The notes under the pieces: generated by a model
Told to the model about the DNA's origin: nothing
The model's database searches: none
What the model saw: the letters and a program-made list of their open reading frames with translations, nothing else
Translations under genes and position numbers: made by a program
DNA from: Zygaena filipendulae
Lineage: Eukaryota > Arthropoda > Insecta > Lepidoptera > Zygaenidae
Assembly: GCA_907165275.2 (NCBI GenBank)
Contig: OU015666.1
Span: 8,896,001 to 8,960,000, forward strand
Length of the DNA: 64,000 bases
Reading direction: 5' to 3'
Shown here: piece by piece, positions 15,536 to 56,294 of the stretch
How the letters are laid out: each line of letters opens with the position of its first letter
Position numbering within the stretch: the stretch's first letter is position 1

Positions 15536-17954
15536 AGATATAGATAATGCACACTCGCATCCGTGCCAAGAAGGAACTAACCTGCATCATCCACATTAAT
15601 ATAAAAGCTCAAGAAGCTTGTGTTGTTAAAGTTAATCCTAAAAGAATATTTTCGTAAAGCGTAGGACTGTCTCTCGTTGTCTCTACTATAGTCCAACCAC
15701 GTATTGTCATAGATACCTACCATCGCCCAATGTAGGAGACACATGGTAGGTATGCCTATCTACCTACTGCTTACTTATCATAGTCATAGTATCCGTGAAC
15801 CGCATCTATGTGTAATCGTGTAATGTAATTAACTATAAAAACAAATACCGTTCTATTTTAATTCTTCTTCCCGCTTTTCCTGACTATTTCCTATGATTTA
15901 TGATATGTACTTTGTATTCGTACCGGTATATAGCTTGTGCGATAATATTTCAGTAAAGATTAAGTAGATAGATTTTATTTGTTACTTTGTTCGCTGTATA
16001 GGTAAATACTCTTCGAGGTTTTACCGGCAATAATTTCCGTAGTCCCTCGGGATCCTACATATATTAAAGTATCCTACATATATTACTCAAGGATATTGTG
16101 CTTCCTATCAATGAAAGAATTTTTAAAACCGATTTAGTAGATAGTTGTAGAGATTATTCCCTACATTCAAACCTACAAGCCAAGAGTATAGTGGCTCAGA
16201 CGAAATAAAAAGTTTTTAAGTTTTTTTATTTCGTCTGAGTATAGTGGCATCTACTTTTGGGTTTTTATTTTTTACAGCGGCAGATATGAGAGCGAAGTCG
16301 TGTGTACCTACCTGCTATAGTGCCACCAGTCCACTGAGTACCTCCTGTGCTTTATTATGAATTCTTCGCACTATAGGCAAAAAGCTGCGGCATTCGAATA
16401 AAAATCTCGCTCACCGCTGACTCCGCCGTCTCTAATGAAGCTTTTTGCATTCAAAGCTCACACAATGACTCTTTAAGCTAGGTAGGTAAAGTATGTTTTA
16501 ATGGTGTTTGCTACCATCTTGAACTTGCTAACGATTTATAGGCAGCTTACCTGATGTTTCTATTAAACTAAGACAACGAGTAACGACTCGATTAACGTTG
16601 ATTGTCAAAAAGTCAAAGATAAATAATTTGATTATGTATCCAATAAACCGGATTTCAAATAGATGACCGTACCAAATGTTTTATGCGCTGTGTTGTTTTT
16701 TCATGAATAAATAATATCTGTCTATATGGAGTTAGGTACTGATCAAACTTGGTCCTTCGAGCCGGATGAGCCGAATTTATAAAACGGTACTAATGTCTAC
16801 CTACATTGAATTATTGATAAAAATCGATTGCCATACTATTGTACATATTTGTATTCAAAAGGCGAACTCTTCAATGAATTCCAATTTCCAACTGAACAGG
16901 TACCTACTATCTATCTAGGTATACAGCCATAAGGTAAATCCTACTAACCTTAACGTTTGGTTTGGTTTGGAAACGTACAAAGCGTATACCTCTCTACCCA
17001 TTGAGAAACTTGACTATAATAGAAGAGGAGAAGAGAATCATTATCACCCAGTTTCCTTACTATTACTAAAGCTAGGTTAACAATTAATTCGTCGAAAGAC
17101 TTATACTTGCAGCGAACTGCGTTTATTGGTTCTGGCAATGCTATAAGTATTAAATGAGGTTCTGGGAAATCGTAAGTTTAACTCTCATTACAATAACGTA
17201 CCCAACGTATAACCGTTAAAAGTACGTAGTATATTTACTCTGAGGTATAACTGCCTGCGCAGTGCGCATCCTTGACTATATGCATGCATGGAAATATGAT
17301 TTCAAAGAGTAGGATAATTTTTAGCTTGAATGAATGAATGAAAAACATTTTATTGAGCACCACATTCCACAAACAGTACAATGTCTAAAAACTTACAAAA
17401 CAGAAAGTATTAAGTGACTCCAGTCCAGTGGCTTGGTTAAATAGATATATGTATAAACTCTTTATTGAACACCTTTAAAAAGAAACAAAAATATACCTAC
17501 CAATTTTTACTTATGTGCCAGAAGTAGACAATTGGTTATAATATGTACCTAGTTTCTGATGTAGTTCTGAAACTCTCGAAGTTATACCTCGGTCAACATA
17601 ACATAACATATGCATAACATAATTACTATAACATGTACTTATACAACTAATAAGACAAGTTTTACACAAATCGCGACTTCGGCCGGCTAGAAAATAAGAA
17701 GTTGGACTTACAGTGAGCTAGCTTTGAGTGTCGAAGTTCTACGGACATTTATCATTCCATTAAATGATTCGGCGAATAAAACTTGATAACTCTTATAACG
17801 CCAACCGAACGTAAGTAGTTAATATCGCACACGATGTTCACCGCACTAGTTCCGCCACTGACTTTGGAAAGTGTTCGTTTAGTTGTAAAGAGACTAACGT
17901 GTAAACACGTCGAGAATTTAACGACATGTAGGCACGACGTTCGTTTATTATAAG
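15536..17954. other. Intergenic tract
   Basis: No gene is seen. It contains the H1 hairpin at 16195 and, near 17,325-17,400, a TGAATGAATGAA tail followed by TTTTATTGAGCACC, resembling a reversed LINE 3' end. Confidence 0.4.
16195..16239. mobile_element. Ultra-short hairpin element, family H1, copy 1
   Basis: A 45-bp palindrome with ends CTCAGACGAAATAAAA and ATTTCGTCTGAG. It is flanked by the perfect 8-bp direct repeat TATAGTGG at 16187-16194 and 16240-16247. Confidence 0.8.
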
Positions 17955-18057
17955 GTTAATGTTAAGACTGGTTCGGAGAGCGGCGCGGGCGCAGCGCAGG
18001 CTTCGCTGGATGGAAAGTTCATCGTACGAGTGAAGGCGGTGCGGGGGGGCGTCGACG
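17955..18057 (+). other. GC-rich patch, possible orphan exon or promoter
   Basis: A CpG-rich island in AT-rich DNA. One plus frame reads QASLDGKFIVRVKAVRGGVD and ends at a donor-like GTGAGC, but the acceptor (TTATTATAAG) is poor. Minus-strand frames are also open. No product is recognised. Confidence 0.2.
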
Positions 18058-18419
18058 TGAGCTGTGTTTGAGAAAATGCTGTCGAAACCTCCGCGATAGA
18101 GATGAGCATGCAAACTATGAAACTAGGTACCATTCATACTTAACGTTTATCCGATCGACGCGCGACGGTACGTTTAGACATATACAAGGTGGAAACGTTA
18201 TGTACCTAGGTATGTCTTCAGGTATGTCATACACTTAAAGTTTCCATTCTGTATACCCGTGCTGTATACCTACTTCATTTTGTAAGTTAAGCGATAAACT
18301 CAGAAACTACAGATAAACAGAACGAATTTTCATGCGGTTTTCACCAATAGATATAGTGATTTATGAGGAAGGTTTAGGCATGTAATTTGTCAAGGTCTTG
18401 TGTAAATATAACCATAATT

Positions 18420-18563
18420 TTTGAAAGTTTCGGAATAAGTGCATTAAATTTTGCATACAGCACGTTGTCAGGTGTACAAAGAAGCTGACATAGCGTACTT
18501 TTGTCCTGGAATTCCCGCTGAAACTCCGAAATTAACGCGGCTGAAACCTCGGGGAACAGCTAG
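18420..18563 (+). mobile_element. Helitron-like repeat, 5'-truncated
   Basis: Contains TCCTGGAATTCCCGCTG and ends GGGGAACAGCTAG then T. Confidence 0.6.
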
Positions 18564-19608
18564 TATAAGACATTTGAGACGATAGTTGAATGGTTCCATC
18601 AATACGTCCCTCGTAATTACCTTACCTACTTCTGTAAAGTAGATTTTTCTCGTTTGTCAGATAAAAATTTCAAGACGATTTACGAGATAACTACCAGAGA
18701 TAGTTTAATTGCGACTCGCATAAAAAGAAATTTAATTTGTAAGTAAATAGATTGGCTGAAGATGTTAGGGATTTTAAATATTTATTTAGGTATATATGCC
18801 GATATGCCGAATGCCGATGATGCAGCTGCCATGGTGACGGCCTCATCCCTTGAAAATCTTGAACGAAAAATGAACGACACTGCTTCTCGGCTTGTGGAGT
18901 TCTTTAAAGCTCTATACATTAAAAAAAAACTCACTGTATAATATACACTTCTCTCTATATCAGGCCGTCCCAGGCCCCACACACAGCTCACAGTGTTTGT
19001 GGATAACTGTGAGCAGGATATATTAGAAAGCACAACATTCTTTGGGTTCGAGATGGATAGAGTCGAGCATGGCATGGTCGGCCCATATATGTAGACAAAC
19101 TATGTGGCAAACTGGGCATTGCGTGCTTCGCGCTGAAACGTATAAGTAATATCCCGCGTGGTGTCGGTGGATGTGGCCTGTGCATAATACTTTGTAACTG
19201 TCCACTCGCTGCTACATTATGGCGCCGAGCTGTGGGGGCGCGCTGCAGACTGACAGCTAGCTTTCCGCATGCAGAATCGCGCACTATTGTGCGGATCTCC
19301 CACACCAAATCAGCTGGCAGCTAGACCATATTTTGTGAAACTGGGCATCCTAACAACCACCTTTTACTGTTATTTAACAAGTGGCAGTGTATGTGAGAAC
19401 GAACGAGGATCTGTACAAAAAGCACAGTGACACACACTCCTATGGCACGCGCGGCACTGACAGACTTGCGCCGCCTGTACCGCGCACCATGGCCAAATCC
19501 TGTAAACTATATAACATATGGACCCCACTATGACAGTGCCGGATTAAGTGAGCGCGTTGCCTGTAGCAAATTCTATTTAGAGGTTTGCTTTAGGTCACCA
19601 AGTTTAGT
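18564..19608. other. Intergenic tract
   Basis: Nothing supportable as a gene. GC-rich patches at about 19,200-19,290 and 19,430-19,500 precede the LINE remnant. Confidence 0.35.
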
Positions 19609-19960
19609 ATGGTAATTATTCACATAAATAATACTGTTAGAAAAAAACTTGATAAATTGCCTGATCATATAGTGGCAGCACCGAGTCTTAACTGTTTTAA
19701 GGGACGATTGAAACGCTGGTTAATCGAGCAGTTTTTCTACTCTTATGATAAGTTAATGAATCTAATAAATATTACCTATACTAGTACTACCGTACCCCGC
19801 CAAGACGAGCCAAGCGAAGCGGGAGCACTATTACCTATCTTTTCTCGAAGTGCTTCGTCGTTTTTTGAACCCTTATAATAACTTGGGTTTGGATGTTACC
19901 AGATAAACGAGATTCTCGGGATATGTTGTCAATATACACATAATAATAATAAACATATAA
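19609..19960 (+). mobile_element. LINE reverse transcriptase 3' end and tail
   Basis: The frame reads KLDKLPDHIVAAPSLNCFKG then RLKRWLIEQ, the C-terminal signature of a non-LTR reverse transcriptase. It is followed by a 3' region (GCCAAGACGAGCCAAGCGAA) that recurs inverted at about 35,385-35,455, then by an AATAATAATAAA tail. Confidence 0.6.
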
Positions 19961-20130
19961 AGTTTTAGTTGCATAGCTCTTATACTTTAGATTTTAAAGA
20001 TATGAATAAGCCACATATTCTGACTAAGGTGTAGAGTTTGAGAAGTTAGGCCTTGTAGAGTAACGTGAGTGTTATAAGCTTGGCTCTACATGAGATCTGA
20101 TAACTTTTTGACAGTGCCCGTCATATGAAG

Positions 20131-20546
20131 GCTTACTATGAGCAAAAACGGAACCATTCAAGTTCCGCGCAGTTTTAGAGCAGGCCTGAAACTGAATTGT
20201 TTAAAATCGTACTATGACCTCCTAAAAGGTGAACGACTATTGCATCGCCATGGAATTAATAGTTTACTCTGAGGTAGATACAACCGAAGTACCTATTAAT
20301 TCCATGTGAAAAAGTTCATCATAGACCAACTTTTTAACCATCGCTTTGACACTTTAGACGCCTTTATACGACGCTTTCGTGCTGTCAAACTAGTGGTCGT
20401 AGTACGAAATGTTCATACAAAAAAAAGGTGAACGGTTTTCTAGATGTCAACGTAAACAGGCCGGTAGCAGGCTTGCTAAAATGTGGTGATAGTACGATAA
20501 AGCAGAGCAATTCAATTTAGGTCCTGCTATAAGAGCTCATAGTAAG
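20131..20546. mobile_element. MITE, about 415 bp
   Basis: The ends AAGGCTTACTATGAGC and GCTCATAGTAAGCCT are inverted repeats. It contains an internal foldback (ATGGAATTAATAG ... CTATTAATTCCAT). No coding capacity. Confidence 0.6.
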
Positions 20547-21015
20547 CCTCATGGACTCGTCTTGGCATAATTTTACATGAAAATGTTTTTGGTGGGATTA
20601 TTTATATCTTTCATCGGTAATTTTTAATTTTCTATTTTGTTTTTCAATGTCAATAGGTTCAATGACTGTCAAAAATGTATACATATATCTGCAGCTGACC
20701 GTACTCTCACCGATGCATTATTTCAGAAAAGAAAACATCTGAACTGGCTGTATGGATGTAGATTCCTTTGGCTTCTCCAAAGGAGTAAAATAAAAAAAGA
20801 AACCGTCAAAAGTCAAAACGTCCGAATTTGGCTCATGTCAAAAATTAAATTGTCAAAAATAAATTACACTGTCATCGTCCATCTGAATCTGATTCGTTTG
20901 GCGATTCAATAGAAATTGTAAGCATTTCGAAGATTTTAGTTCTTTGAGTTAGAAGCAAATTCCAATTTAGCATTTAACTATTCTAAATTAAACGAGAATT
21001 TGTTAGCGAAACAAT

Positions 21016-24000
21016 ATGCCTAAGTTTGCTGGTGAGTGTTTGTACAGTTTTCTGATTCCTTTGTTGAGGTTAGAGAGGTTTGTTTTCTGATTTTCTAAAA
21101 TGTTTCGTGTTCAGTTCTAATTAGGAAATAAGTTACAGTTACTAATCGGAGTACTGACTGCCGTGATATATTTGTTTCCAATTGTTCCGCCCTGTAAAGC
21201 TTCGAATATCCGACTACTTAATGATAACTTTCCCGGCATCTGTTTTCGAATATTTGAGCGGCTCCCATTTATTTGTATTAAACTGTTTCAGTTAAAGTGA
21301 AATGGGGCAAGGAGATGTATCCAGGTGTGGAAGTGAATACTGATGATGAACCTGTGTTGTTCAAAGCACAGATCTTTGCCCTGACCGGGGTACAACCAGA
21401 GCGACAGAAAGTGGTATGCAAGGGAGTTACACTTAGGGATGACACTTGGGGAAATTTCAAATTGGCTAATGTAAGTTATCAGTTTTGGTATTTATTTTCT
21501 GTTGGCACTATTTTATTAAATTACTTTAGATTATAAGAATTTTTTTGGATTCAAAAACATTTAATTAAGATTAAAAGGTTGTTTGTGCTATAAATTGTAA
21601 AGCGTTTTTATTTCAAAGGTAAGTGAAAAAATTTATGGATGACTTAGCAATTTATCATTGTGGCAGTTGCTTAATTGAGCAGTCATACTGCTGGGGCAGT
21701 GATATTGGGCTTCTTGCCAATTTTATTTTAGTTAATTTTATATATTTCAGAATGCTCTTGTCTTAGTGATGGGTAGCAAAGAGGAAGATGTACCAAAAGC
21801 ACCCACTGAGCAGACACGATTTGTGGAAGACATGAATGAATCAGAGCTGGCTACAGCTGTGAGTTACCTTTATCATATTTGCATTACAAACTTTGCAATT
21901 AAGATTTACTAATGTAATTTTGTATCCACAGTTAGATATGCCAGAGGGTCTCATTAACTTGGGTAATACTTGCTACATGAATGCTACGGTTCAGTGCCTC
22001 AAAACTGTGCCAGAGTTGAAGAATGCCCTGCTCAACTATGATAAATGTAAGAATGATTGAATGGTATTGCATTAGTTGTGTGTTAAATTAAAATGCCTCC
22101 ATTCTAGCCTAAGGTCAATTTTGAATAAAAATATTGAACTCTGTCTGACCATGTGTACTGGCTGCAATACTCAACGTCATACCAGATCAGACAAAAAGAG
22201 AGTTTACCATCAAAATTATAAACTAAAATCATATACATATATTATATTATTAGATAATTTATAAGGCTAAAAATAGTGTGTGTAAAATTAGTTAAGCCGT
22301 CTCACACGTGTGGTTGTTTTACTACAGATATTTTACGAGATATATTAACAAATTTATAAATTTAATTACCAACAAAAAAAAGCAACCTGTATAAGCGATG
22401 CCTTCTTCATAATTTTTTAAGTGGGTAGCAATAAAAAATTAAAAACAAGGTACATAGAAATATAGTAATATTTAAATTCTAAATAATGTCAGATGACTGC
22501 TATTGCGCAAATACAAATTCAAAAGAGTTTAAATGTGCGTCGTAATAACCAACGTTATATTGTAATTGTTCAATAAATAAAAAAAAATGTATAGCATCCG
22601 GCGGCGGTGCGGTGGGTGAGCTAACGTCAGCACTGAGTGTGACGATGTCTGCACTGGAGAGCGGCGGCGCAGGCGCGTGCGCTGGGGCGGCGGCGCGGCT
22701 TCTGCGCGCGCTGCACGCGACCACGCCGCGCTTTGCGGAGCGCGCACCGGGCGGCGGCCTCGCGCAGCAGGACGCCTCCGAGTGCTGGACGGAGATCGTG
22801 CGCGCGCTGCAGCAGCGGCTGCCCGCCACACCGAGAGTCGAAACTGGCAATGATAGGTAAACTTTTTTTTTCTAATAGAGTTTAGCAAAACTGATAAGTA
22901 CTACATTTTTAATGATAATAATGGTTGGACAAATAGCTTGAATTGTAAGATAGAATAATGGCTATATGAACTCACCACGATGTTGGTACTAACTTAATGA
23001 CCTTTTTGATGAGTATCTGTGAAGCTAGTATAATATTATATTGGTAATGTTTTAAGACCAAGGACATACAATAAATACATTATGTTTTGTTAATTTTCTT
23101 AACTATGCAAAATTGCGTGCAGAACGTCTGTGATCGAGCAGTACTTCGGCGGCACACTGGACGTGGAGCTGGTGTGCTCGGAGGCGGACGAGCCGCCCAC
23201 GCGCGGCAAGGAGACGTTCCTGCAGCTGTCCTGCTTCATCTCGCAGGACGTCAAGTATCTGCAGTCGGGGCTGAGATCTGTGAGTTGCAATATGTGATCC
23301 ATAGCCCCTATACAACACACACACATCACACGCGCGCACGTCAGCACAATCATGACCCCAATGCGCTGATTGCGCATTGATATTAATGAGAAAATAACAA
23401 AGAACCGGAAATATAATTATTATAATGTATGACTCTGCATTTATTTTGTATTGTTTTCAGAAAATGTCAGAACAAATCACTAAATTGTCAGAAACATTGG
23501 GGAGGGATGCTGTTTACACAAAAACCGTGAGTTTTTATTATTATTTACTCTAATAACCTTGAAAGACTAACATTTTGATTTTATTCTAGTAAACTTTTTG
23601 ATGTTATTTCAATTGAAAAGAAAACCTTTAAAATTTCTTTAACTTTCATGTTTCTAGACCTAGCTGTTTGGTTTAGTCTGTTCTTTGATGATGTATATTT
23701 TTATCCTGATTGGACCTGTTATTTTTGGCATCAATAAATTTGATTCCAGAGTAAAATCAGTCGCTTGCCTGCGTACCTAACTGTGCAGTTTGTCCGCTTC
23801 TACTACAAAGAGAAGGAAGCGATCAACGCAAAGATTCTTAAAGACGTCAAGTTCCCGCTAGATCTTGATGTGTATGAGCTGTGCTCGCCCGAGCTGCAGG
23901 AACGACTTACGCCGATGAGAAATAAATTCAAGGTAAAAATAACATCTAATATGTATTTCATAAAGATGACTATAGCAAAATGCAACCTTTTACCACACAG

Positions 24001-27000
24001 CTTGTTGATTTCAGGAATTAGAAGATGCGAACATTGACTCGTCTCTCACTACGAAAAATAGAAGCCACGGTGACAGTAAAAGAGAGTCAAAAAATAAAAA
24101 GGTCATGCCATATTGGTTTGAGAATGGTATGTAAAGTTTCCTCCTAACTATGTACATCTTATAAATCTGAAAGTTTGTAAACAATATAATTTGGCGCAGA
24201 ATAATATTTATTTATTTATTTATTTATTCTTTATTGCACAATGTGTACAAATGGCGAACTTAATGCCTTTCGGCATTCTCTACCAGTTAACCATTGGGTA
24301 GACAGAGAGATATAGAAGATGGGGTGTGCAAACAGAACAATAATTAATATACTTAATACTAGACACTGATAATTAATAACTAAAACATAAAGATGCAATT
24401 TACTCACAATACATACTATAACACATGCATATCCTACATATACCGACACAATAAAATACATACACACATAGTTACATATAGTATATATATATACACATGT
24501 TCGCGATTAACACATAGGCATACTTTATCTAGGTGCAAACACTCAGTTCTTAGATTTATAAATGAAATATGTAATACTTATTGTTAGTTCCCTACAGGAC
24601 CAATTAAATTGGTCCATGGTTCCCTATGTCAAAGTAAAGTGAAGTGAATTGAAAGTTTTGTAAATCTATACATGGACGCAGATAAGCAATAACATGTTAA
24701 CCCATAAAATTAAGTTATTGATACAGAACGATTTATTGAGAGTTAGAGAACGTTTTTTAATTATGTGTTTACCTTATTACATTGTTTAAATATGTAACAA
24801 AATGTTGAACATAAAAAATGTTTACACAAAATGGCGCTATAATTTTAAAACACGATTTACACAAAATTTCTCCAATGTGGGTTAACACACTATTGCTTAT
24901 CTACGGCCTCATAATCCTGAATGACTGATGGACAGTTGTATGTGTTCTTTGTACGTAGGAATCCGATAAGAAAAGATTTTTGAAAATTCATCTCCTAAGG
25001 GGATGAAAAGGGGTTGCAAAGTTTGTATGGAACAATTCCGCGGGAACGGGTAAAACCGCGCGGGACAGCTAGTGAATAATAAAAAAATCGCAACTACATA
25101 GTTTATTTAACCACTACTGCAGTCCCCCGCGGTTTCACTCGCGGAAATGTCGGAGTTCCGGGTATTGTGTAACTATTTTGTACTCAATAAACTCCCTTGA
25201 AATTTCATTCGCAATGGGCATGATGGCTCTAATTTTTAGTCCGTCTTGTAGATTAATAAAAAATATTGGACACGTATTTTTCGTTTTTTTTACGTAAGTA
25301 ATTCAAAAATAACGGCGATACATTCAGTTGAACTTCCGTGTGACGTCACACCTAGGTACACTTTATACTTTTGATATGAACGTCGCGCGTCGCGACGTCG
25401 ACTCCTAAACTTTAATCCGTTTATCTAAGTATCTTTTTAATAATTCGAAAAAGCAAAAATACGTGTCTATTATTTTTTTTACAATCCATCTGATGGACTA
25501 AATGGATGCCCAATGTCGCCCGAGAGAAGTGTGACTTGAACGTGGCCGGTGTCGGCACTCGGCTCTCGGCAGACGTGGGCAGCAACAACAGCGGCTACTA
25601 CCGGCTGCAGGCGGTGCTGACGCACCGCGGGCGCTCCTCGTCGTCGGGGCACTACGTGGCGTGGGTGGCGCGCGCCGGCGGCGGCTGGCTGCGCTGCGAC
25701 GACGACGCCGTCACGCCCGTGCCCGAGGAGGAGGTGCTCAAGCTCAGCGGCGGAGGTGAGGCGGACACTAACAGCTTGTTGCCACTTGCCGGATGTTGGA
25801 TCCGGATTTTATTCGGATGTTGGCGCCCCTGTTCACACTTGTCGGCTGTCGGACACGGTCGAAGCTGGCGCCAACACAACAACTCTGTGAACTGTGTGTG
25901 TGAACAGCGCGATAGGCGAGCGAGATCCGACAGGTTTTTTTTTCGGGGCGTAGAGGGCTCGCAAAACAGCCGACATTTCTTGTCGGCGACGACACAAAAT
26001 CTGTTTCCGAAAAGTGTGAATAGCTCCATATAAAATGTTCTGCCACTGGAGCATCCGATTAAAATCCGAACGGAGTGTTATTTGATGATTTTCTCGGCCA
26101 ATAACGGACAGAACTACCCGGCCGAGTTACTCGGCGGTGTGTGTGCACACTGCACCGGTGCCGACATTGGACGTTGCCGGTATTCTGTAATGCTTGTTGC
26201 TTAACAGAGTGAACACGCGTGTATAAAATTATAAAATGGAAGAATTCGAAGAATTTCAGAAAATACATACTGCAGAACAACAGAATAAAGACAGAATCAT
26301 TAATCTACACTCGATTTGCACTGTAGACGGGTGTAGACGGGCGAGAAATCCCAACAAGTTCGGATGCGACGGTTCATCGGCCCTTGACGGTCGTGTTGGT
26401 GTACGCGCTCTCTATCTTTTAAGGTCCATTTACATCTACAGACATTGATCGTGTCCGACACGTTCCGTTGCAGACAAAATAATATTCTCTAATACAGTGC
26501 GTATTAACGATTCACATCTATCGTAACACGACCGCGCAGACGCGGACAGACACGGGCCAGTATTTGCGAAAAGAATATTTTGTCTCGCGGTTCATTTCTG
26601 TACGTGTCTGTGGCTACATGCCGAGCAGTGTGAATAGAGGATCGGAACCGTGCAGATGTCTTCTGTAAATAAACGGTGTTTTTTCTTGGCACGTGCCTGG
26701 CGCGGACCGTGTCTGACACGCTCTATTTGTGTATATATAAATGGACCCTTAGGTGTAAGCGAGCCGTAAGGCTATGGTCTCTAATAAACGCCGTCGGCCG
26801 CTCACAGAATCACGTCGTCGTACGCTGCGTCACGATGCTTACTATAGAGGTGCACTGTTGTAGTCTCTTTCACATCAACGCGCAACGTTGGCGTGTTGAC
26901 GTCATCTAAACACTGTGCGACGCGCTCTAGTCATTTCGAACCATTGCAGCGTGAGTCGAGTCTAGCTTCGCATATAAAATGGCAAGATTTAAAACGTGAT

Positions 27001-29465: not shown

Positions 29466-29660
29466 AAACGTAGTGGTTATATACTCTTTTAAAAATAGTA
29501 TTCTAGTGATAGTAAAACGTAGTGATTACCTTCTCTCTGGTGATTACCTTCTCTCTGCTAGTGATTATTAAAACGTAGTGATTACAAACGTAGTGATTAC
29601 CTTCTCTCTGGTGATTACCTTCTCTTTGATGATTATGGTCAGATTGTGGTGATTAGCACG
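29466..29660 (+). repeat. Interspersed tandem repeat upstream of the DCST gene
   Basis: About four units of GTGATTACCTTCTCTCTG alternate with units of AAACGTAGTGATTA. It ends roughly 95 bp before the proposed DCST start codon. Confidence 0.75.
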
Positions 29661-29754: not shown

Positions 29755-32700
29755 ATGAGTGTATTCCAACGGCTTAGAAATATTTTATCCGATATTATTA
29801 GAGTGGCGTGTCCGCCGCTACATAATGCTGTAACATCAGGGTACCAGGAAAAGAAAAATCTCAAACGTTGCCTGGGTTTCGTTGCAGGCTTCGGCCTGGG
29901 TCAGCTGTATTGCGTGTGTTTCATTAACAATGTACGGTTCCCGTGCCACGTGGAAGCTTTTTTGTCGTTGTTAATAAGTGTGTTATGTGGTTAGTGACTT
30001 AATCAAATAGAACAATAAACACAAGCAGCGGTCAACGTTAAACGCGGTGATTGTATTTAAGACTAGCTGTCCCGCGCGGTTTCACCCGCGATAATTTCGA
30101 AGTTCCCGCGGAATTGTTCCATACAAACTTTGCAACCCCATTTCATCGCTTTGGGGGTTGAATTTTTAAAAAATCCTTTCTTATCGGATGTCTACGTCAT
30201 ACAAAGAACACACCCTCCAAATTTCAGATCTCTACGATTAGCGGTTTAGGCTGTGCGTTGATCGATCAGTCATTCAGGACAAAGCATTTTATATGTATAG
30301 ATAGAATGAGTGATAGCTTTTTCAGTAAGACTCTTCGGAAAAAACATGTTTACGGAATGTATGGGTAAGGGGGTAGGTAGGACCACTATAGAACCTATGG
30401 TTAAAAAGATATGACTACTGCGTAGGTTATTCGTAGGTTAGGTAGACCTTTTTGGGGTGAAACTTAGCCTTTTTCACATTTACACTGTGTTAGACTAATA
30501 ACCAGTTTTGCATGTGTTTCGGTCAACCTTCCACGAACTAAATGTAGGTAGGTAGGTATAGGTCTACTTTGAACTTTAAACCGGAAATTATTGGAGAATA
30601 CGCATATTTTTATTGATATTAATTTCTAATCCACTCATATAGATTAACTACATGGAATCGCAGTAATACGATACCTATGTAAAATCCGTTGTCCGTCCGA
30701 TTCATTGTCTCACCTTTGTTGAACATGAGACAATGAATTGTTCTTACCTAGTAGTTATGGCAGGTCTTTGAAAAAAGAATGCATTTGTTGTTCTTTAAAA
30801 TACAAATGGCAACAATAGACTTTTTTCTTGTTTACTGTAAACAAAGTAAACAGTTAGTAAAACGTTTGGACGACTCCATTCCACACTTACAACTTTACCT
30901 CTATCTATTAACTGTCCCGCGTTCACCTGCGATAATTTCGGAGTTCCTGCGGAATTTTTCCATACAAACTTTGCCCACTTTTTTCACCCCCTCAGGGGTA
31001 GAATTTCGGAAAATCCTTTTTGTATAGTTTAGTTAGTTTACTTAGTTGACAAACATCCATCCATACATCCAGTAAGTGAACATTTTGTTATTATTGGGCG
31101 ACGCGACGTTGCTACAGCTACAAGAGTTGCTCCTTTCTTATCGGATGCCTACGTCATACAAAGAACGCACCCTCCAAGTTTGACCCTAACTCCTAAGCTG
31201 CCAATCGGGTGCTTATTAGTTAGATATGCACTTCCTAGCTACGTATCTATAATTATACTTACATTTAATTCGGAACCAACGTTATCTGGTTCCTGTCTTC
31301 TTATCATCGTCAGTAGATCTACCTGTTATTGAAATTGGCGCGCACTGGAATCTGGTATTTACAGGACTCGGAAACGCTGTATCTACCCAGATAAGATGCA
31401 TATCTCTGCTGACGTTCCCCATGTTCTGCGGCAAGCCAGGACGCAGCGTGCTGAAGGCTGTGGTGCTTACGTTCGTGGTCGCTGGTTAGATCCTCCGTTT
31501 TTTTTAATCTTTAATTGATCCTCTAGATATCTATAATGGTTATCTACTTTCTCCATGCATACCTGTAGAATTTAGAGCGACTGCGTTTGTACTTTGTTTT
31601 CCTTTGTAAACGAAGACAACACGGAAGTCGCATTTCGCGTATGATAATGAATATCACCTATACTTTAACAAAAATAGAACATCGAATTGAAAGTTTAAAA
31701 CAAATACTAGCTGTTCCCTGCGGTTTCACCCGCGTTAATTTCGCAGATTCCGGGATAAAAGTACCCTATGTCCTTATCTGTAACTCTGACAACGTGTATG
31801 CATTTCATAATAATCGGTTGAGGGGGTATGGGTTGAGCCGTTGAGGCATGAAAGCGTAACAAATAAACAAATTCACTTTCGCATTTTTAGTAGATACCTA
31901 GTAGATAAGGATAACATCGAGTTTGTACCTCCGTACCTATATCGTAAATGCAATCCAAAATCGATCTTATTCTTTTGGACTACGTTTTTTTGTTTTTTAT
32001 GTTTTTAGGGCCAAATGACAAAGTAAGGTAGTTCCTTAGAAACCGGTTACTAGTAATAAAGTTTAAATCGTATGTAACTTACAAAATATATGTATATGTA
32101 AACTTGCAAAGTCTTAACAATGTGTCATTGAAGTATGTACTGCAATGTGTGAGGAAAGTAAAATCCTTACTATTATAAACGCGTAAGTGAGTTTGTTTGT
32201 TACGCTTTCACGTATCTACCTACCGTCAGAACCGATCATCATGAAATTTTGAATAAACGTTGTCAGGGGTACCTACAGAAATGGACATGGCATTTATTTT
32301 TATCACGGAATTCCCGCGGAATCTCCCAAATTAACGCAGGTGAAACCGTGGGGAACAGCTAGTCAAAAATAAATTCAGAAGTAGGTTGTGAAAATCACCT
32401 TTTTATTCTGCTACACATTTGTTTTGTAACTTTCCAATGCGTTATAGACAAACTAACTGAAACTTTTGTAAGTCTTTATGTCCTACACTCAGACGAAAAT
32501 TTCGTCTGAGGTCCTACATAGATCTTCTACCTCGAAAAAATGTGTCGTTTCCGAGGGAATCCTGAAATCACAGGCAGTACATATATTTCAATGGGAAGAG
32601 CAAAGACATTCTATTTGGGGAAGAGCTATAAAACTTTAAATTGATTCATAGCCCGTAGGTACGTAAGATAAGAATGTTGTGTTGTCACTCCTATAGTTTT

Positions 32701-35700: not shown

Positions 35701-38700
35701 ATTAATGGGTGTTCTCTATTTACAGATCGATCCAGGTCTAGGTGAAGGCTACGAATCATTTAAGAAATTAAATAAGAAATTAGCTAATAATTTCAAGCAT
35801 ACAAAAGTTCAATATAAAGTCACGAATGTGCGAGAGCTATACAATATTCAGGCAAGTAGGTAGGTACTTACCTATTTACTGTATATACCTAATGACTGGT
35901 AACTGGTTTGTTTATGAGTTTTTCACTTTTGTTTTGCTTTCGGGCTCTCTTTGGTTAATTGTATCTGGATGAAGTCACTCAAAGATACGGCGACTTCCTA
36001 AGTTCCTATCGATGAAATATTTCTTAATTTCTTAGATTGGTTCAGTAGTTCCAGAGACTGTCTCACTCAGACGAAGTAAGAAGTTAGGTCTGAGCTGTCT
36101 CATAAGTACAGCCAAACTTACAAAAATTACCTGTTTAAAATCATAATGTAAGTACGCGACAGTAATAACTACCTAGCTAACTAATCTTTTGTTTTATAAC
36201 TACAGAAATATTTTTTTTGCAGTAGGTAGACGGGCAAAAAGCCCTACTAACTAATAACTGCTAAGCATATTTTGTAGGCAGACATGAATAGTCGAACACG
36301 TATTCAAACAAAGAACACTGACAGCTGACGATTTTTTGTGTCGATATTTTGAAAGCTCTGCTGTTGGTAGACGTAGGTTAGGTACGTATCTTTCGTTTGT
36401 GTAGGGATTGTATCTATCAGAATAGCTGACCGAAAATAGGCGATGCTTGTGGTCCAGAGAGTCTTTTCGTGCGTTTAATGATCTTAAAATTCTATAATTT
36501 GGTTAAAAGTTGGTTAACGATCGTAATAATCCCTATCTACGAGTAGGTAGGTATATCGGCCCCGACAATTTGACGATGGACGACGAGACGATTTTTTTTT
36601 TCGTACAAATTCCGACGCATTCATGGATGTCATAAATAATAAATTTTATCTAACGCCTATAGTCGAGGTTAAACTGGCCCGGGTAAAGACCCTGTGTTGT
36701 AGTCACTAGGTACTTGCAATAGAGGAATCAGAGTCCTCTAAAAATATTTTTCAATAAGTTACAGTATGTAGGTACAGGTACACATAATGCAGCCTTTTGA
36801 TAAGTTGATAAATGAAAGTTTTAATTATGATTTAATAATGATGATAGATAGGTACCTAGATAGATAGATATAATTAAATTTTTAAGGGTACCTACCTCAC
36901 ACGAAATAAATATTTCGTCTGAGGTACCTACGTACAGTTTTATGATAATGGGATGCTGTAATATGCAAAAAAAGCACACGAACACAGCGTATTTTTCCGA
37001 AGAAAGATGCAAAAATATACTAGGTACATCTATACAATAGATACATATAAATCCTATAATATGAAACAATGTCAACAAAACTATAGCACTCCATATTACT
37101 TGTGAGGGATAAGAAAAATAGTTAATAGTAAAGCGGGTGGAAAAAAAACCTCGCATCTTGCCTCTAGGTTACACGCATCCTTTTTTAAATATCTCTACAA
37201 GAAGCGTGTTAAAAATAATCTCATCCAGGATGCGAAAGAGACGGGTGACCGCGTGAAGCATGCGTTCGAAGAGAAGAACACGATAATGCAGGCGGCCATC
37301 ACTGTGGTAGACTTTTGCCTGGCGCTGTTGTTTCTGCGCGTCGTGTTCGCTGCGCGGACCTACCACGATATGTACTTGACGAGCATCGAGCACGATAACG
37401 TATACATCACCGACTACTTCAGGAGAATAGACCAGAGGCGTGGGTCGATGAACAAGCACACTCTGTTGCCGTTGAAAAAAGTAGGTGATGAAAGCAATGA
37501 ATAGGTGCGAAAGTAACTCTGTCTGCATGTCTTTCTGTCTGTCTGTCTGTCTGTTACGCTTTTACGCCTTAATGGCACAATCGATCATTATGAAATTTTG
37601 CATAATATACGTTGTCAGGGGTACAGATATGGACATAGGGTTCCTACTTTTTAACCCAAAACTCCCGCGGGAACTCCCAACTTATCGCGGGTGAAACCGC
37701 GGGGAAATAGCTAGTTATTATTTAATTATTTTATAATTATATCAGCCGACAGACGTTTCTACTGCAGGATTAAGACCTCCTTCAAGGATCTCCATGACAA
37801 CCACTCCTTGCGCTACCCTCATTCGGCCAGGTCACGTGGTCTTCACCATGGTCATGGTCTCATTGGTCCACCATGCGGCAGTTAATAAGTTAATTTTTCA
37901 ACCTTAAACTCTGGGCCCCCGGCCACTTACTAGCTGATTCTATTACGGATCTCCTTTTTTTTTAACTGGATCTTTTTAAAAACTTACGTTTCCCTTTAAA
38001 AAAATAAAAACATCAGATTTTACCTTTGTGTGGGTTCAACATAAATTCGAATGTGAGTTTATTAGTTTGTTTGTTACGCTTTCACGCCTTAACTACTCAA
38101 CCGATTCTTCATGCAATTTTGCATACACATATCATGGGTACATAAAAGAACACTTTCACACACGTCATTCCCGCGGGGACTTCGAAATTAGTATTAGTTT
38201 ATTAGTTATTAAATAAATCGGTTGTTTATTTACAGAGATTTCGCTTAAGACTTTTGGAAACAAATTCACAGGAATTGAAAACCCTCGTTTTTTGAGGTCT
38301 GTTAAAAAATGTTGTTCATGAAATTATTGCTAGATGGAAAGAAGCCGGTACACTGACGTCCACTCGACGGCGTTCTTAACGGCGGACCATCATAAGTTCC
38401 TCACCCAAATCCCGAAACTGATGCTGGAGGTGGTGACGGCGACTACGTTCGTGATGCTCGACCGGCTGTTCTACGAGGCGCTGGATGTTGTCCGCCAACA
38501 CTCCCAAGTTGAGCGCACCCCGCACGGTACCCACGATTTAGACGTTGAGGTACCTACTTATAATATTTCAATAACTGCGTTTTTACTTGCAATAAGGCTT
38601 ACCTTAGGGCGAGGAACTCGAACAGTGCCCGGGACTTGCGACACAGGTGTAGGTTCATGGAGCTCTTTTCTAATGCATCAACTCTGACCTTTACTACCCG

Positions 38701-40290: not shown

Positions 40291-40945
40291 CCACTAAAAG
40301 TAAGTAGGTACTTACTATCTTCTAGCAAAATATGCTCCCACGACAAGTAAGTAATAGTTAGGTAAAAGTCTAGTTTATTAAACACTAATTTTTCCCCTCG
40401 TCATTTTACCCGCACCCATTTTGGGATTCCGTCGAGAACGCTTAAAAAGTGTCCTATAGCTAAAGTAGCTGATGCTGAGTTGGTGACCCTTTCGGCAGAG
40501 CATGCAAGAGATATTTTTCTGTGTTCAAGCTTGCAAATGCATAAATGACCTTACATCCTTATACCTACAATGTATAGGTAGGGTATAAGGTAGGTACATT
40601 ATAATACATATTTTACTTCGCAATTTTTTTTTTATTTTTCCATTGTGGCGTCTATTACTAATAATTTTGCCAATGACAATGTTTTTAGTGCTAAAAGCAG
40701 GAGGTAAAAAATAACACCGTTGTCTTTTGAAAACCTACAGTTTCTTGCTTCAGGTACACAAAACGGCTGCTGACAGGAGGCTGAGGCAAAGAAAGTGTAC
40801 ACTGTACACTCCAATGATATTTTAAGTAGAATGTCTTTGGTACACTCAGTAGGACTTGCATGCGACAGCAACCTGCTCCGAGTTTGTACAATATAATATG
40901 AGCTCTGTTCGTATTGATCAAAGATATAATAAAATAAACTTCTAT

Positions 40946-45852: not shown

Positions 45853-45855
45853 CAT
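45700..45855 (-). pseudogene. N-terminal remnant of the element's second ORF
   Basis: The minus frame from ATG at 45855 reads NMAKGQKLFEADHVLQVEEV and AVITGKV, then loses similarity near the deletion junction. The pattern resembles the zinc-finger/YqaJ-type accessory protein of ISL2EU elements (from memory). Only about 50 residues remain. Confidence 0.45.
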
Positions 45856-50668: not shown

Positions 50669-53476
50669 TTAGCGGCCTCCGTTATTATTACTTGGTTGCG
50701 GTTGAAATTCGGATGGTTGAAATTTGGTATCAGGTTGATGGGATCGAGATGATGATGGTCGAGGGTGGTACATCTTTGGTAGATCCATTGAATTAACTGT
50801 ATATACTTTGATCAAGTGTTTGATTCCCGTGAAATTAAAGTTTTTTTGTTGGTGATCATTCCTGGGCAATATTTCTAATAACACGACAATGTTACCTTCA
50901 GGAGTAAGGGCTACGTTCGAAGGGCGGTACGCTTCGTTGCCATACTTTACATTTATAGGATATTGATACCTAGCCTCAATACGCTCGTTATAAAATACCA
51001 ACCGATAGTTTTTGGAATCAGCAATGACCATCCAGCCGCGATCGTCTATGACAATACCAGACGGACGATTAAATTGTTCAATATTAGTACCTTCGGAGCC
51101 ATGACGTTCAACAATGGCTAAGCTTACTAGATCGATTAAATTAATAGCGTGATAATCAAAATCAGACACAATGAGACTGCCTGTCGCTGTAAAAGTTACA
51201 CCTCTCGGAACACCATTCAGAATGCCGTTCGATTTTTTCATTTCGATTTGCGATATGAACAGGCCGTGGGTCGTAAACAATTGAATTCTGCAATTGCGGG
51301 GATCGGAGACGGCGATGTCACCGTGAGAATTTGTAGCCACATCCCAAGGAAACGCAAACTGTCCAGGTTGGTTCCCCGGCGAACCGAATGCTAGAAGAAA
51401 ATCGCCTTGCATTGAGAATATCTGAATTCTATGATTATCCTTATCGGCAACAATAATGCGGCAGAATATGTCTGTGGTTACCCCGGCAGGAAGTTGGAAT
51501 TGTCCAACTTCCTCTCCTAGCTGTCCAAACATTCTTACTAATATTCCATTGCTGTTAAAGATTTGGATACGGTGATTTCTTCTGTCAGATACAATGAAAT
51601 TTCCCATTCTATCAACACATATACCCCAAGGTCTACAAAGTTCTCCTTTACGACTACCTTCTATGCCGAAAGAGAATTTTTCAACTAGTTGTATTGAATC
51701 ATTTGTGGGTTGTATATTGAGACGTATATTTTTTCGATATCCCGGTATTGGTCGATTTATTGGCAAAGAATAATTGAAGATTGGAAAGATGTCATTTTTT
51801 TCACAATTTCGGAGCGTTTGAACAAAAGATGTGCACATTCCTAATGCAATTTGCAATTCCAAATTAAATGTATAATCTCGAATTAATTTTACCACTAATC
51901 CTTCATACAAATAAATACGTGGCTGTGGAATAGGAATATTTTCGTATAAATATTTATACAGATTTACTTCAGCAGTGCACTTTTTTTCAGCTACAAACAA
52001 ACTAATTTCATCTTTGTTTGTATTACGATTTTTTATTAATTCGTCGTTGATTTCATCTAAGGCTTTCAACACACCGTTAAGGAAGTCCATGTGATTATGA
52101 AATTCATTATTTTGCTTGTCATGTAGCACTTTTAAGTGATTCAACGCACCTACCGCCGTATCCGCTTCTTCACCATTCGCATCATAAGCCATTATAAGCG
52201 TTTCAACGTGTTGCACTTCCTGTACAAATGCTTTTTTGCTATTATTAATGTACGTTAAAGCCGACATTACTATCAAACTGATTTGTTTATTTCGAGCTAT
52301 GGCTTTATTAATTTCATTGATACATACATTGGAAGCCATTCTTAATGGCATGAGCCTGTGATTGCTGTGCATTTCAATGCAATCGATACAAATTAGTTTT
52401 ACGCAGTGCAAGCAATAATGTATTTTATTGAGTTTGTGAATTACGCATAACTCCATCCTTTTTCTAGGAGATGGGAATGCCCATTGGTGTTCAGGATAAG
52501 AAAATATATCGTGAGATAAACGCAAGCATGAATTTGTAAAGTCGTAATAACAATGAGTGCACAGAAGTATAGAACACGTTCGACAAAACAACTTTGGTGG
52601 ATATAACGGACATTTGGAGCATCGTTGCTTAGCATAATGACTAAAACTTTGTCTCATGGATGACCACATCAGATCTGTTGGAGCTCTCATCCCACAGAGA
52701 TATGAAGTTGAAGGTCCAGGAAAAGTAAATGAGCTAGTAGTTGTAGTTGAACTTCCGAAAGTGTTAAACTGGCAGCCTAATGAAGCAAACCACGTGTTTG
52801 TTGTTGATGTTGAAGGTCCGGGAGCATTAAACCAGCTACCAGTTAAATTTGAAGACTCGGAGCCATCACATGAGCTATTAAATGAAGATGGTTTCTTGAT
52901 GTGTACAGCCGACCAGCTGTTTAGAGAGCTAGATCCCAGGGTGCCAGAAGAGCCGCAAAATGAAGCCGAAGGTTCGGTACCAAATGAGCTGTTTGGTGAA
53001 CAATTTTCAGATGCACTAAACAGGTTGTTAAAATTGTTAATTAAGTCTGAATATGTGGAGTCATTGGACGACTCGTTAATTAATGTTGATCTCGATGAAG
53101 AACTACGGTTTTCAGATAAGTTGTAAAATGAATCCGATTGTTCATGGGAACCAGATTTGGAGTCTTCAAATATACCGTTAAATTTATCCAAGAGTCCATA
53201 GGAACTCGATGGACTATTTGAAGGTGTACGATCGATACCACTAAGCAAGTCGCTAAGTGTATTTGATGTTGCCGCAGCACTTGGCGAGTCGTTTAATGTT
53301 GGAGGTTTGGAAATAGCAGGTGGTATGCTAGACCAAACCGCCTCACAAGCATCTGCTAATGCCATCTGTCGTTCGTGAATTTCTAACATGTGTCTGGTCT
53401 CTTCCGCAAAGGAGTAAATACCTCTAGACGTGGACGCCACGTTATGTCGGCTGTAGTCATCTGGATGCAATGACAT
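50669..53476 (-). CDS. B-box/NHL-repeat protein, wech/TRIM71 (LIN-41)-like, 935 aa
   Basis: One uninterrupted frame. Residues 1-280 are Ser/Thr/Asn-rich and probably disordered. A first Cys/His cluster (CSKCPLYPPKLFCRTC, CTHCYYDF) starts near 283. A B-box 2 (CVIHKLNKIHYCLHC, CIDCIEMHSNH) spans about 343-380, followed by a helical coiled-coil-like region. From about 600 to 890 there are six NHL-type blades, e.g. GELCRPWGICVDRMGNFIVS, DRRNHRIQIFNSNG, VADKDNHRIQIF, NRPSGIVIDDRG. There is no RING domain, as in Drosophila Wech. TRIM-NHL proteins bind RNA or protein partners through the propeller, and Wech links integrins to the cytoskeleton (family knowledge). The acceptor AATTTTCAG about 17 bp before the ATG suggests a 5' UTR intron. 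Orthology is not settled because only similarity to wech/TRIM71 is visible. Confidence 0.85.
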   Translation of the reverse strand: MSLHPDDYSRHNVASTSRGIYSFAEETRHMLEIHERQMALADACEAVWSSIPPAISKPPTLNDSPSAAATSNTLSDLLSGIDRTPSNSPSSSYGLLDKFNGIFEDSKSGSHEQSDSFYNLSENRSSSSRSTLINESSNDSTYSDLINNFNNLFSASENCSPNSSFGTEPSASFCGSSGTLGSSSLNSWSAVHIKKPSSFNSSCDGSESSNLTGSWFNAPGPSTSTTNTWFASLGCQFNTFGSSTTTTSSFTFPGPSTSYLCGMRAPTDLMWSSMRQSFSHYAKQRCSKCPLYPPKLFCRTCSILLCTHCYYDFTNSCLRLSHDIFSYPEHQWAFPSPRKRMELCVIHKLNKIHYCLHCVKLICIDCIEMHSNHRLMPLRMASNVCINEINKAIARNKQISLIVMSALTYINNSKKAFVQEVQHVETLIMAYDANGEEADTAVGALNHLKVLHDKQNNEFHNHMDFLNGVLKALDEINDELIKNRNTNKDEISLFVAEKKCTAEVNLYKYLYENIPIPQPRIYLYEGLVVKLIRDYTFNLELQIALGMCTSFVQTLRNCEKNDIFPIFNYSLPINRPIPGYRKNIRLNIQPTNDSIQLVEKFSFGIEGSRKGELCRPWGICVDRMGNFIVSDRRNHRIQIFNSNGILVRMFGQLGEEVGQFQLPAGVTTDIFCRIIVADKDNHRIQIFSMQGDFLLAFGSPGNQPGQFAFPWDVATNSHGDIAVSDPRNCRIQLFTTHGLFISQIEMKKSNGILNGVPRGVTFTATGSLIVSDFDYHAINLIDLVSLAIVERHGSEGTNIEQFNRPSGIVIDDRGWMVIADSKNYRLVFYNERIEARYQYPINVKYGNEAYRPSNVALTPEGNIVVLLEILPRNDHQQKNFNFTGIKHLIKVYTVNSMDLPKMYHPRPSSSRSHQPDTKFQPSEFQPQPSNNNGGR

Positions 53477-53744
53477 GGTGCGTTACGGCATTCTGAAAAT
53501 TAAAAGAGATGTTTTAATAAACGTATATTATATGTAAATTGTTCAATAGTTTATTGACACTAATACATATTATTATTATAAAAAGATAAATTTTTTAAGG
53601 TTGCATATAGGGGACAACCTGTGGGACCACTGAACCGGTTCTAAAAGTCCTAGTTTACTGATAGGAAACTACGGTATCCCTGAGTGACATGCCAGACCCG
53701 ATCATCAATTAAACGCACAGCTATTTCAGGATGTGGCCAAACAT

Positions 53745-53900
53745 TTTTTTTTTTTATTTATTCACCAAAAATATAAGTACATGGCATGTTACAATAGTCT
53801 GCCAAACTGCATAGCAGTTTGTCGGCAGCAGTTCTCGTGGAACCTTACATATTATTATGACCATGCGACAGTCACATATACATCTATATCCATACATCAC
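53745..53900 (-). mobile_element. LINE-type 3' end remnant
   Basis: A T/A-rich tail (TTTTTTTTTATTTATTCACC) followed by sequence typical of a reversed retrotransposon 3' end. It lies in the proposed 5' UTR intron of the NHL gene. Weak evidence. Confidence 0.35.
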
Positions 53901-53959
53901 ACATAAGTAAAATTGAACTGTCCGTTTGCAATTACAACTTACAGCCCTCCGTCAAACGC

Positions 53960-54055
53960 ACATGAAAGCATATACGGAGGGAGGAGGGCACTTTTTATCC
54001 TGGAATTCCCGCAGGAACTCCAAAATTACCGCGGGTGAAACCGCGGGCACAGCCA
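53960..54055 (+). mobile_element. Helitron-like repeat, truncated
   Basis: TCCTGGAATTCCCGCAGGAA and hairpin CCGCGGGTGAAACCGCGGG, with the end mutated to CCAG. Confidence 0.6.
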
Positions 54056-54430
54056 GTTGGCATATAATTGGCAATTAAATGCGATAAATTGCCATAATTG
54101 AAGAAGAAGAAAGTCGAAGTAGATAAGTATTTACATTTTTCTTACATTTCGAATTTCTCTTTCTTTCGTTGACATCCTAATCATCATCATCCTAATTCAT
54201 TAAATTTTTAATGAAGTCATAAAAAACACTATTTTAATGATCAAAAAAGCTATAAAAATTAATAAAATAAAAATAAAAAGGCAAGCCCCATAATTAACAA
54301 TAGTATTTTGTTCCGACTGTGTAAAACAATAATGAATCATTGTTTCTTAGATGCAAAACTAACGGCGACGACGACGCGACGTTGTGAAACTAAAATCTAA
54401 TTAAAAATTACAGTAAGTAAGAAGACTTAC

Positions 54431-54520
54431 AACAACAAAAAGATGTCAATAATATTTCACACTGCACAAAAAGTTCAACCCTAACAAACCACCATCTTGT
54501 CGACGTCTCGCGTCTGTATC
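54431..54520 (-). promoter_or_regulatory. Possible 5' UTR exon of the NHL gene
   Basis: On the minus strand TTTTTGTTGTT is followed by a strong donor GTAAGTCTTC (starting at 54430). This could pair with the acceptor just upstream of the start codon. The transcription start is unknown. Confidence 0.35.
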
Positions 54521-55804
54521 GATGACGTGACGCGCCCTCGCGTATGGAACTCAACTGATACTGTCAGTCCTATAAAATGCATATTATAGCTAAATATCCC
54601 AAAATCTTGAACGTACGCCCCCAATGCATCCCCCGCCCTTAGCATTTGACCCAAGAAGAGCAACAAATATAATTATTCCTCAGGAGGGAAAGGGATAGTT
54701 TGTTTCCAAGAATTTTTGTTTAGCAGTCGTACAGGGTGAAACCATAAAAAACATCGTTGTGGTAAAAAAAAATCTCCGAACACATTACACAATACACTCA
54801 CGTAGGTAGGTAACTACCTACCTATTGTGTTTGGAGTCAATGTGCATTTTAACAACTTTTCAGGAGAGACATATAACCGATTTATGAATTTTTTTTTAAT
54901 AACTTATATCAAAAATCAAGAAATATGTTTTTTTTACAATAAATGAAGATTCATTCATCGCCAATTAAGACTTTTTTGTACTTTATGTGCATACCTATGG
55001 GTATTGGAGTACGTACATAGTTATTTACTCTGAGGTATTGGTTTTACTTTTACTAAGCACTAGTGACTGTAACTCCATACTAAATCACACATGTGCAGCG
55101 ACGGTTATCAATTTAGATAGGTACCTACTCATTTGAATTTCTAAGATAACGAAAATCCATAGGTATGTGTTTTGATACACATGTGTTGTGTTCTGATCCA
55201 AATTGAATTTAGGAAAACGAGTTTTTGCATCAGACGTGGAATTTAATTTTAAAGCGAAATCTGCAAAAAAAAATTGAGAAAATGCACATAGTGGATTTGG
55301 CAATCTCACCGACGATATAGGTACGTAAAAACACCAGTGCTCACCATATACCTATTTCCCTAGGATACAATAATGACAAAACCGTCAGCCCATAAAAGAA
55401 CGAATTGCTTCTCAGTAAGAGCAGTGAACAGTGCTCGCAGTGAATATCGGAACATAGGTTCTCTAACTATGTGCTCACAAGTCGCAGTCGCCCATGACCC
55501 TGAAATAAATTTGGTTGAGGAAGGTCGGGGTCGGGGACACACCCCAATCGCCCTGCCGAAACACCCTCGTGGCTGGGACGACTTCGGGAGCCGGGAGGGT
55601 GCAGAAAATCAATAATTCGTTCGTCATTACTGTATTATTTTCTTGGCGCTTTGTCTATGCAGCCGAATCATCCCGCCGAGACCCGAAGTTAGGATTAGTA
55701 TCAAAGGAAGTAAATATTATAATGAATGCCTTTACTAATATTTACTGTACATCTATTTTACACTGTTTTCAGTAACTAGTAATGAGCGTAATTAGAATAT
55801 CCAA
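54521..55804. other. Intergenic tract with one GC-rich patch
   Basis: The patch at about 55,500-55,620 (GGTCGGGGTCGGGGACACAC) is unlike its surroundings but gives no recognisable protein on either strand. Confidence 0.35.
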
Positions 55805-55945
55805 CTAGCTGTTCCCCGCGGTTTCATCCGCGGTGATCAGATCCCGCTTTTCCGGGTTACAATATAATATAGCCTATGTTACTCAAGGATAATAACTGAG
55901 TAACCAAATATCTTTCCTCTTTATAATATTAGTACCTAGACAAGA
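55805..55945 (-). mobile_element. Helitron-like repeat
   Basis: CTAGCTGTTCCCCGCGGTTT and CATCCGCGG give the reversed 3' end and hairpin. Confidence 0.65.
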
Positions 55946-56170
55946 TAAAATAGAGGAGTCAAAATTATGCACCGAAAACCTCCCTAAGCCCGAAAGTTAG
56001 TTTACACTAGGTAGGAAGTTTTTGAGATATTTCAACTTTTGCGTTATTTACAAAATCACCCAATTTTAAACCGTCCGACAAAAAATATCATTATAAATTA
56101 TAATGGTGGTTGGTTTTAACAATGGGTGGGTTCCCGAGGCGACATTATTTTATTGTTGGTTTATCTATTC

Positions 56171-56205
56171 CTCAGACGAAATAAAAACTTTTCATTTCGT
56201 CTGAG
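56171..56205. mobile_element. Ultra-short hairpin element, family H1, copy 5
   Basis: 35 bp with ends CTCAGACGAAATAAAA and ATTTCGTCTGAG. The flanking 8-mers ATCTATTC and ATCTATTT match at 7 of 8 positions. Confidence 0.7.
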
Positions 56206-56294
56206 ATCTATTTTATACCTAATGTAGGTTTGTTAGTTAAATACACATAGATCTGTGCACATAGATACAGAGAAGTTAAATAGGTACGCATTGT

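Follow-up and report, generated by a model that had tools for sequence, protein, structure and literature searches.

Short hairpins between 8-bp target duplications in Zygaena filipendulae as probable excision footprints of P-superfamily transposons

The window considered here, a stretch of 64,000 nucleotides from the lepidopteran Zygaena filipendulae (contig OU015666.1, positions 8,896,001 to 8,960,000), contains five short hairpins with shared ends, the H1 family, each set between 8-bp direct repeats (Table 1), and raises the question of whether such palindromes are themselves mobile or are what a larger mobile element leaves behind. The initial annotation had read them as inserted elements without a body, smaller than a miniature inverted-repeat transposable element (MITE), with a P or a hAT transposase as the candidate mover. 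Its coordinates, sequences and flanking repeats, four of them perfect and one (ATCTATTC/T) agreeing at 7 of 8 positions, are reproduced in our analysis. Based on the composition of the hairpins and on longer intact elements with the same ends, we propose with high confidence that the H1 hairpins are natural excision footprints of P-superfamily transposons made by end joining.

H1 hairpins and their target duplications across the genome

Scanning the window for exact 8-bp direct repeats that flank hairpins of up to 70 bp (10-nt arms, at most 2 mismatches), we obtained 9 rows as against none in each of 10 Markov simulations; H1 accounts for 4 of the 9, and some of the other rows are AT-rich or lie within other repeats. 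The motif CTCAGACGAA, with up to one mismatch, occurs 10 times in the window versus 2.3 occurrences expected, a number reached in 0 of 100 shuffles. The genome-wide search for paired ends that had been suggested as a check was then applied to the 366-Mb assembly (56 contigs), where the pattern with exact 12-nt ends (CTCAGACGAAATN{0,30}ATTTCGTCTGAG) matches 574 sites and that with exact 10-nt ends (CTCAGACGAAN{0,30}TTCGTCTGAG) 764, the reversed control of each giving 0. The 12-nt pattern has no match in the prokaryote collection genome_contigs. The one match of the 10-nt pattern in IMG/VR (L001), which lies inside a phage coding sequence and has no flanking repeat, was rejected as a member of H1.

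Target duplications were scored at 52 sites, comprising 50 listed sites from the 574 matches to the 12-nt pattern and the 2 window sites that fit it: the 8-bp duplication is perfect at 41, has one mismatch at 5 and is absent at 6. The proposal of independent insertions with 8-bp duplications is thus upheld, as a statement about transposon insertions. In an overlapping, looser set (n=52, at most one mismatch) there are 52 different targets, with a weak, palindromic preference (G at 0.38 in position 1 and T at 0.53 in position 2, mirrored) that exceeds the 95% null. The 306 kb of sequence that we fetched, mostly around known sites, contains more imperfect scars (in L008, L012, L020, L025, L028 and L034), and the true number of scars is therefore larger than that counted. 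Heavily trimmed scars likewise fall outside the H1 counts. At L008:327-379 a tail built of end pieces lies inside a perfect duplication.

Composition of the hairpins and the intact elements that share their ends

The scars alone, before any parent was known, gave two end types, AAAAAGTC and AAAAACTC, and these are exactly the left and right ends of L057, an intact element described below. In 38 of the 52 hairpins the sequence is exactly a prefix of the left end followed by a suffix of the right end, with no body beyond the two; 17 of these are joined blunt and 21 overlap by 1-3 nt, although the overlaps may be slightly lengthened as an arm was always compared with whichever end type fitted it better. 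The other 14 hold an insert of 4-18 nt, and the middles vary between copies in both length and sequence. The arms measure 12-20 nt (3 of 104 are readable as 21, one base fitting both sides), with 45 of 104 falling at 19-21 nt; the search pattern imposed the lower bound of 12 nt but not the upper one, and had room for arms of 21-35 nt. The 10-nt search supplied 15 further hairpins (7 blunt, 3 overlapping, 5 with inserts), none with an arm longer than 20 nt. Two hairpins of 55 and 59 bp (L058 and L059), too long for the first pattern and fetched as a test, have arms of exactly 20 and 20 nt, perfect duplications (ATGCAGGC and GTATGAGG) and inserts of 15 and 19 nt respectively; the latter insert starts with TTTTTATTTCG, 11 nt of the terminal repeat. 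In the 69 hairpins decomposed in all, the three ambiguous readings aside, no arm is longer than 20 nt. Copies of the terminal repeat were also recognized in the inserts of L036 (11 nt, shuffle P 0.001) and L019 (9 nt, 0.032).

The window hairpins decompose similarly. That at 16195-16239 consists of 19 nt of one end, a 9-nt insert and 17 nt of the other, and that at 56171-56205 of 19 nt, a 4-nt insert and 12 nt. At 32488-32510, 11 and 12 nt from the two ends are joined blunt, and this junction recurs as the reverse complement at C1:12706055 (decomposed as 12+11, blunt). The hairpin at 36896-36923 is a blunt join of 15 and 13 nt with one substitution, its junction being identical to those of L004 (by eye) and L034:621 (reverse complement). 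The one at 36066-36094, which by eye comprises some 19 nt of one end (with 2 substitutions), then 3 nt and then 7 nt of the other end, is similar to L028:9571.

Longer elements sharing the H1 ends, which the initial annotation had recommended looking for, do exist. The end sequence CTCAGACGAAATAAAAAGTC is found at 215 and 207 places on the two strands (control 0), and among the first 100 places listed are four convergent pairs 1.4-1.7 kb apart. One of these pairs bounds L056, which is 1,635 bp long and has the perfect 8-bp duplication TATGCACT on both flanks; its terminal repeat is about 35 nt, and its arms extend to 49 nt at 92% complementarity if the flank is included. On its minus strand, MPKCVVKGCKNQSTKNKKHDGITFHT precedes a splice-donor-like GTAAGT and represents a putative first exon of a THAP domain, the domain by which P transposases bind DNA. 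This stretch is 76% identical over 88 nt of DNA to L051; the next exon of L051 matches THAP positions 23-84 (E 8.9e-8), and a P-transposase match lies on the same strand, 500 bp downstream of where L051 ends. Queried with 276 bp of the L056 end, the genome returned 41 matches among 543 candidates, 40 of them scored: 18 are 91-100% identical, 22 are 84-86% identical and 1 is short. L057, a member of the second group, is a 566-bp element with the perfect 8-bp duplication TGCATCGT on both sides, a GTC-type left end, a CTC-type right end, a 33-nt terminal repeat whose two copies differ once, at position 18, and, on visual reading, a THAP-like exon 1. No long open reading frame (ORF) is present in L056 or L057, and both read as internally deleted P derivatives.

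Intact 27-nt ends of both types number 406 in the genome, which overturned an impression, gained from GTC-type ends alone, that very few intact elements are left. Among the first 100 of them, 68 belong to 34 convergent pairs that span 566-1,959 bp, and the other 32 stand alone. The hairpin as a bodiless element smaller than a MITE thus does not hold: the intact elements with H1 ends measure 0.57-1.96 kb, of which the hairpins would retain the outermost 10-20 nt of the two terminal repeats, rejoined at variable junctions. Contig C1 has 38 scars (of up to 50 bp) versus 18 intact ends, that is, 6 complete pairs and 6 single ends, a ratio that is rough because the patterns for scars and for intact ends differ in stringency.

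The RNaseH domain of P transposases (PF21787) has 59 matches in the genome, several of them in open frames of 760-902 amino acids and some in groups of near-identical copies. THAP exons are visible by eye in L051-L053, with Pfam applied to L051 only, and the 5' flanks of three P-transposase families (L051-L055) have no H1, H2 or H3 end. Based on the THAP exon, the 8-bp duplication and these 59 matches, the transposase acting on H1 ends would be of the P type. As a separate observation, the near-identical copies and long open frames give the impression that P elements of several kinds have been recently active in this genome.

Proposed excision by end joining and its alternatives

We propose that P-superfamily elements of about 0.5-2 kb insert with duplication of 8 bp of target, as seen in L056 and L057, and that on their departure a P-type transposase would cut one strand at the outer end of the element and the other about 20 nt inside the terminal repeat, leaving each flank with a single-stranded tail of the element end. 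The scars, together with the Drosophila P mechanism, are the basis for the position of the inner cut and for the tails. The two tails would then be joined by the host through microhomology of 0-3 nt, after trimming or with a short insert, a pathway suggested by the junctions observed. Each tail being an inverted copy of the other, the outcome would be a near-perfect hairpin between target duplications, and the palindrome a by-product rather than a functional hairpin. The simplest reading of arms that extend to 20 nt is a 20-nt stagger, the alternative being limited repair synthesis past a shorter tail.

This proposal can be compared with what has been described for P elements, which make 8-bp duplications and 17-nt single-stranded extensions and, in D. 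melanogaster, have terminal inverted repeats of 31 bp (PMC7776569). The excision junctions of the fly construct P{wa} comprise, in order, the duplication, a left tail of up to 17 nt, a microhomology or insert, a right tail of up to 17 nt and the duplication again (PMC2895639, Table 1), which is the order found in H1; by our count that table (PLoS Genet 2010) holds 47 microhomology, 1 blunt and 18 insert junctions in 66 isolates. Unlike the H1 set, the 66 come from a laboratory assay in repair mutants rather than from natural scars, and 20 of them were joined at long microhomologies with loss of almost the entire tails (PMC2895639), a class invisible to the H1 patterns. The P-element MITEs of Anopheles gambiae are, like L056 and L057, non-autonomous P derivatives with 8-bp duplications, but are intact elements and not scars (PMC1562414); the words footprint, hairpin and palindrom are absent from the main text of that paper. 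Zebrafish Pdre2/THAP9 likewise represents a THAP-type P transposon beyond flies with 8-bp duplications, though its terminal repeats are of 13 bp and of another sequence (PMC10983969). Natural scars with filler sequence have been described at DNA-transposon excision sites in rice (94 putative excisions, fillers in 58); in contrast to H1, these concern plant superfamilies, derive from a comparison of two genomes, and mostly combine flank deletions with fillers instead of forming a repeat family of terminal-repeat hairpins (PMC4423477). For the terms searched, we found no natural or genome-wide record of P footprints in the open-access collection covered. One or other of the two 10-mers occurs in the text of 71 papers, and the 20 of these that were listed have seemingly unrelated titles.

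Several observations weigh against an origin by P excision. The H1 tails reach 20 nt versus 17 nt in the fly (PMC2895639); 10 of the 12 inserts tested show no significant templating by shuffle; and certain junctions recur, a 35-mer in 5 and a 27-mer in 3 of the 52 hairpins, which mobile hairpins could also yield. The six sites without a duplication directly at the hairpin are L006, L015, L031, L035, L043 and L045. At L043 a perfect duplication lies beyond a 6-nt repeat of its own end, and the flanks of L015 are those of L045 in opposite orientation, as expected of copies within a larger repeat. Exon 1 of L056 matches PF05485 at positions 1-21 (E 0.011) with 17 bits, below the Pfam cut-off of 23.9. 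Finally, among the matches listed, a full-length transposon with H1 ends (CTCAGACGAAAT) and its own transposase gene, also sought on the recommendation of the initial annotation, was not found: the shortest distance between a PF21787 match and one of the 41 end matches is 14 kb, and the first 100 of the 406 intact ends have no such match within 135 kb.

Among other explanations, it is conceivable, if very unlikely, that longer hairpin MITEs were inserted and later lost their middles via replication slippage or aborted gap repair, with no excision by a transposase. Slippage in palindromes is plausible, and such loss accounts for the duplications, the identical ends and the variable middles. However, the breakpoints stop at 20 nt on both sides, including those of the two longest hairpins, despite a terminal repeat no shorter than 33 nt and a search open to arms of 21-35 nt; under a simple model of breakpoints uniform over 12-35 nt, both arms would be 20 nt or shorter in only 0.19 of cases.

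We consider it highly improbable that the hairpins are themselves ultra-short mobile elements consisting of terminal inverted repeats only and moved by a transposase as 20-59 bp units. Their independent 8-bp duplications and the recurrent middles noted above could be accommodated in this way, but the differences in length and sequence among middles are unlike those of copies of one element, and in the recurrent types themselves the two ends either meet blunt or share 1-3 nt of microhomology. Moreover, the intact elements sharing these ends are 566-1,959 bp long, and deleted P copies of D. melanogaster are reported to need 138 bp and 216 bp of their ends (PMC1562414).

A hAT parent has a comparably slim chance. 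The pairing of P and hAT as candidate movers was a fair one, in that hAT elements also make 8-bp duplications and the target motif is weak; nevertheless, the THAP exon in both of the intact copies read and the retained terminal-repeat tails favor P over hAT. In hAT excision it is the flanks that form hairpins (PMC3878927), so that leftover tails of 10-20 nt from the two element ends would be unexpected. That H1 represents conserved regulatory or RNA hairpins, as the near-complete fold-back might suggest, deserves scarcely any credence, for different 8-bp duplications flank the copies, which already contradicts such conservation, loops and arms vary, and longer elements with H1 ends exist.

Neighboring features and significance

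Other hairpins and stretches in the window and the fetched loci adjoin similar repeats (Table 1). The H2 hairpins are probably scars of another P-like family; the imperfect hairpins with CAATGATA..TGTCTTTG ends are a possible further scar family, and the stretches of CTCAGAAGAATAAG type are possibly trimmed scars of a related family. At L007:1545-1589 we observed a 45-bp hairpin, CACGGAGCAGAT..ATCTGCTCCGTG, whose duplication TCTACACC overlaps that of a neighboring H1 scar (ATCTACAC), which points to two successive insertions at the same spot. An element of about 240 bp in L021 (~7530-7770), whose ends are of a diverged H1 type (CTCATACCAAATAAAAACTAAAGACGG) and which is flanked on either side by GTTGGAAA, reads as an older P-type MITE. 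The largest ORF in the window shows 30% identity to wech of the butterfly Aricia agestis (the top-ranking named match that spans almost all of the query) and 32% identity to a protein of the moth Diatraea saccharalis, among 120 matches listed; the matches with the best E-values are unnamed NHL-repeat proteins covering about 30% of the query.

Table 1. Positions of the H1 hairpins and of other features in the window; loci outside it carry their own prefix.
Feature	Position	Strand	Flanking repeats or remarks
H1 hairpin 16195-16239	16187..16247	unstranded	TATAGTGG at 16187-16194 and 16240-16247, 8 bp, perfect
H1 hairpin 32488-32510	32480..32518	unstranded	GTCCTACA, perfect
H1 hairpin 36066-36094	36058..36102	unstranded	CTGTCTCA, perfect
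H1 hairpin 36896-36923	36888..36931	unstranded	GTACCTAC, perfect
H1 hairpin 56171-56205	56163..56213	unstranded	ATCTATTC/ATCTATTT, 7 of 8
H2 hairpins, CATGGACCAATAAAAT..TTTAATTGGTCCATG	7657-7691, 24597-24620, 56295-56330		GTCACAAT, GTTCCCTA (8 bp), GCATTGT (7 bp)
Imperfect hairpins, CAATGATA..TGTCTTTG	40812-40839; L031:1028-1049 (more divergent); L036:2169-2188		GTACACTC, GCCTACAT, TGTGTGCA, exact 8-bp repeats
Stretches of 14-17 bp, CTCAGAAGAATAAG type	L013:1875-1888, L021:6177-6193, L031:4339-4352, window ~1102		8-bp repeats in the three loci; one mismatch at 1102, by eye
CAGAGAGAAGG / CCTTCTCTCTG stretches	L010, L012, L026, L028, L033, L036; window 29511-29610, 62876-62890		adjoin 8-bp direct repeats; ends asymmetric
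wech/TRIM71-like NHL protein	50669-53476	-	935 amino acids, uninterrupted; largest window ORF

Taking the evidence together, we lean modestly toward a broader interpretation, in which the genome holds a readable natural archive of P departures, with at least several hundred H1 scars that outnumber the detected intact elements, along with scars resembling those of other families; in which this P lineage cuts 20 nt, and not 17, inside its ends; and in which germline repair of the gap is largely end joining in place of restoration of the element from the sister chromatid. Studies of excision scars usually deal with a few dozen at once, in engineered strains. From a single assembly, hundreds of independent natural scars would yield the cleavage geometry of a P transposase without an experiment, as well as the germline break-repair spectrum of a non-model insect. 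They also offer a warning for repeat annotation, in that a short palindromic family with target duplications can consist of scars and not of a mobile element, and they allow the departures of a transposon to be counted against its survivors.

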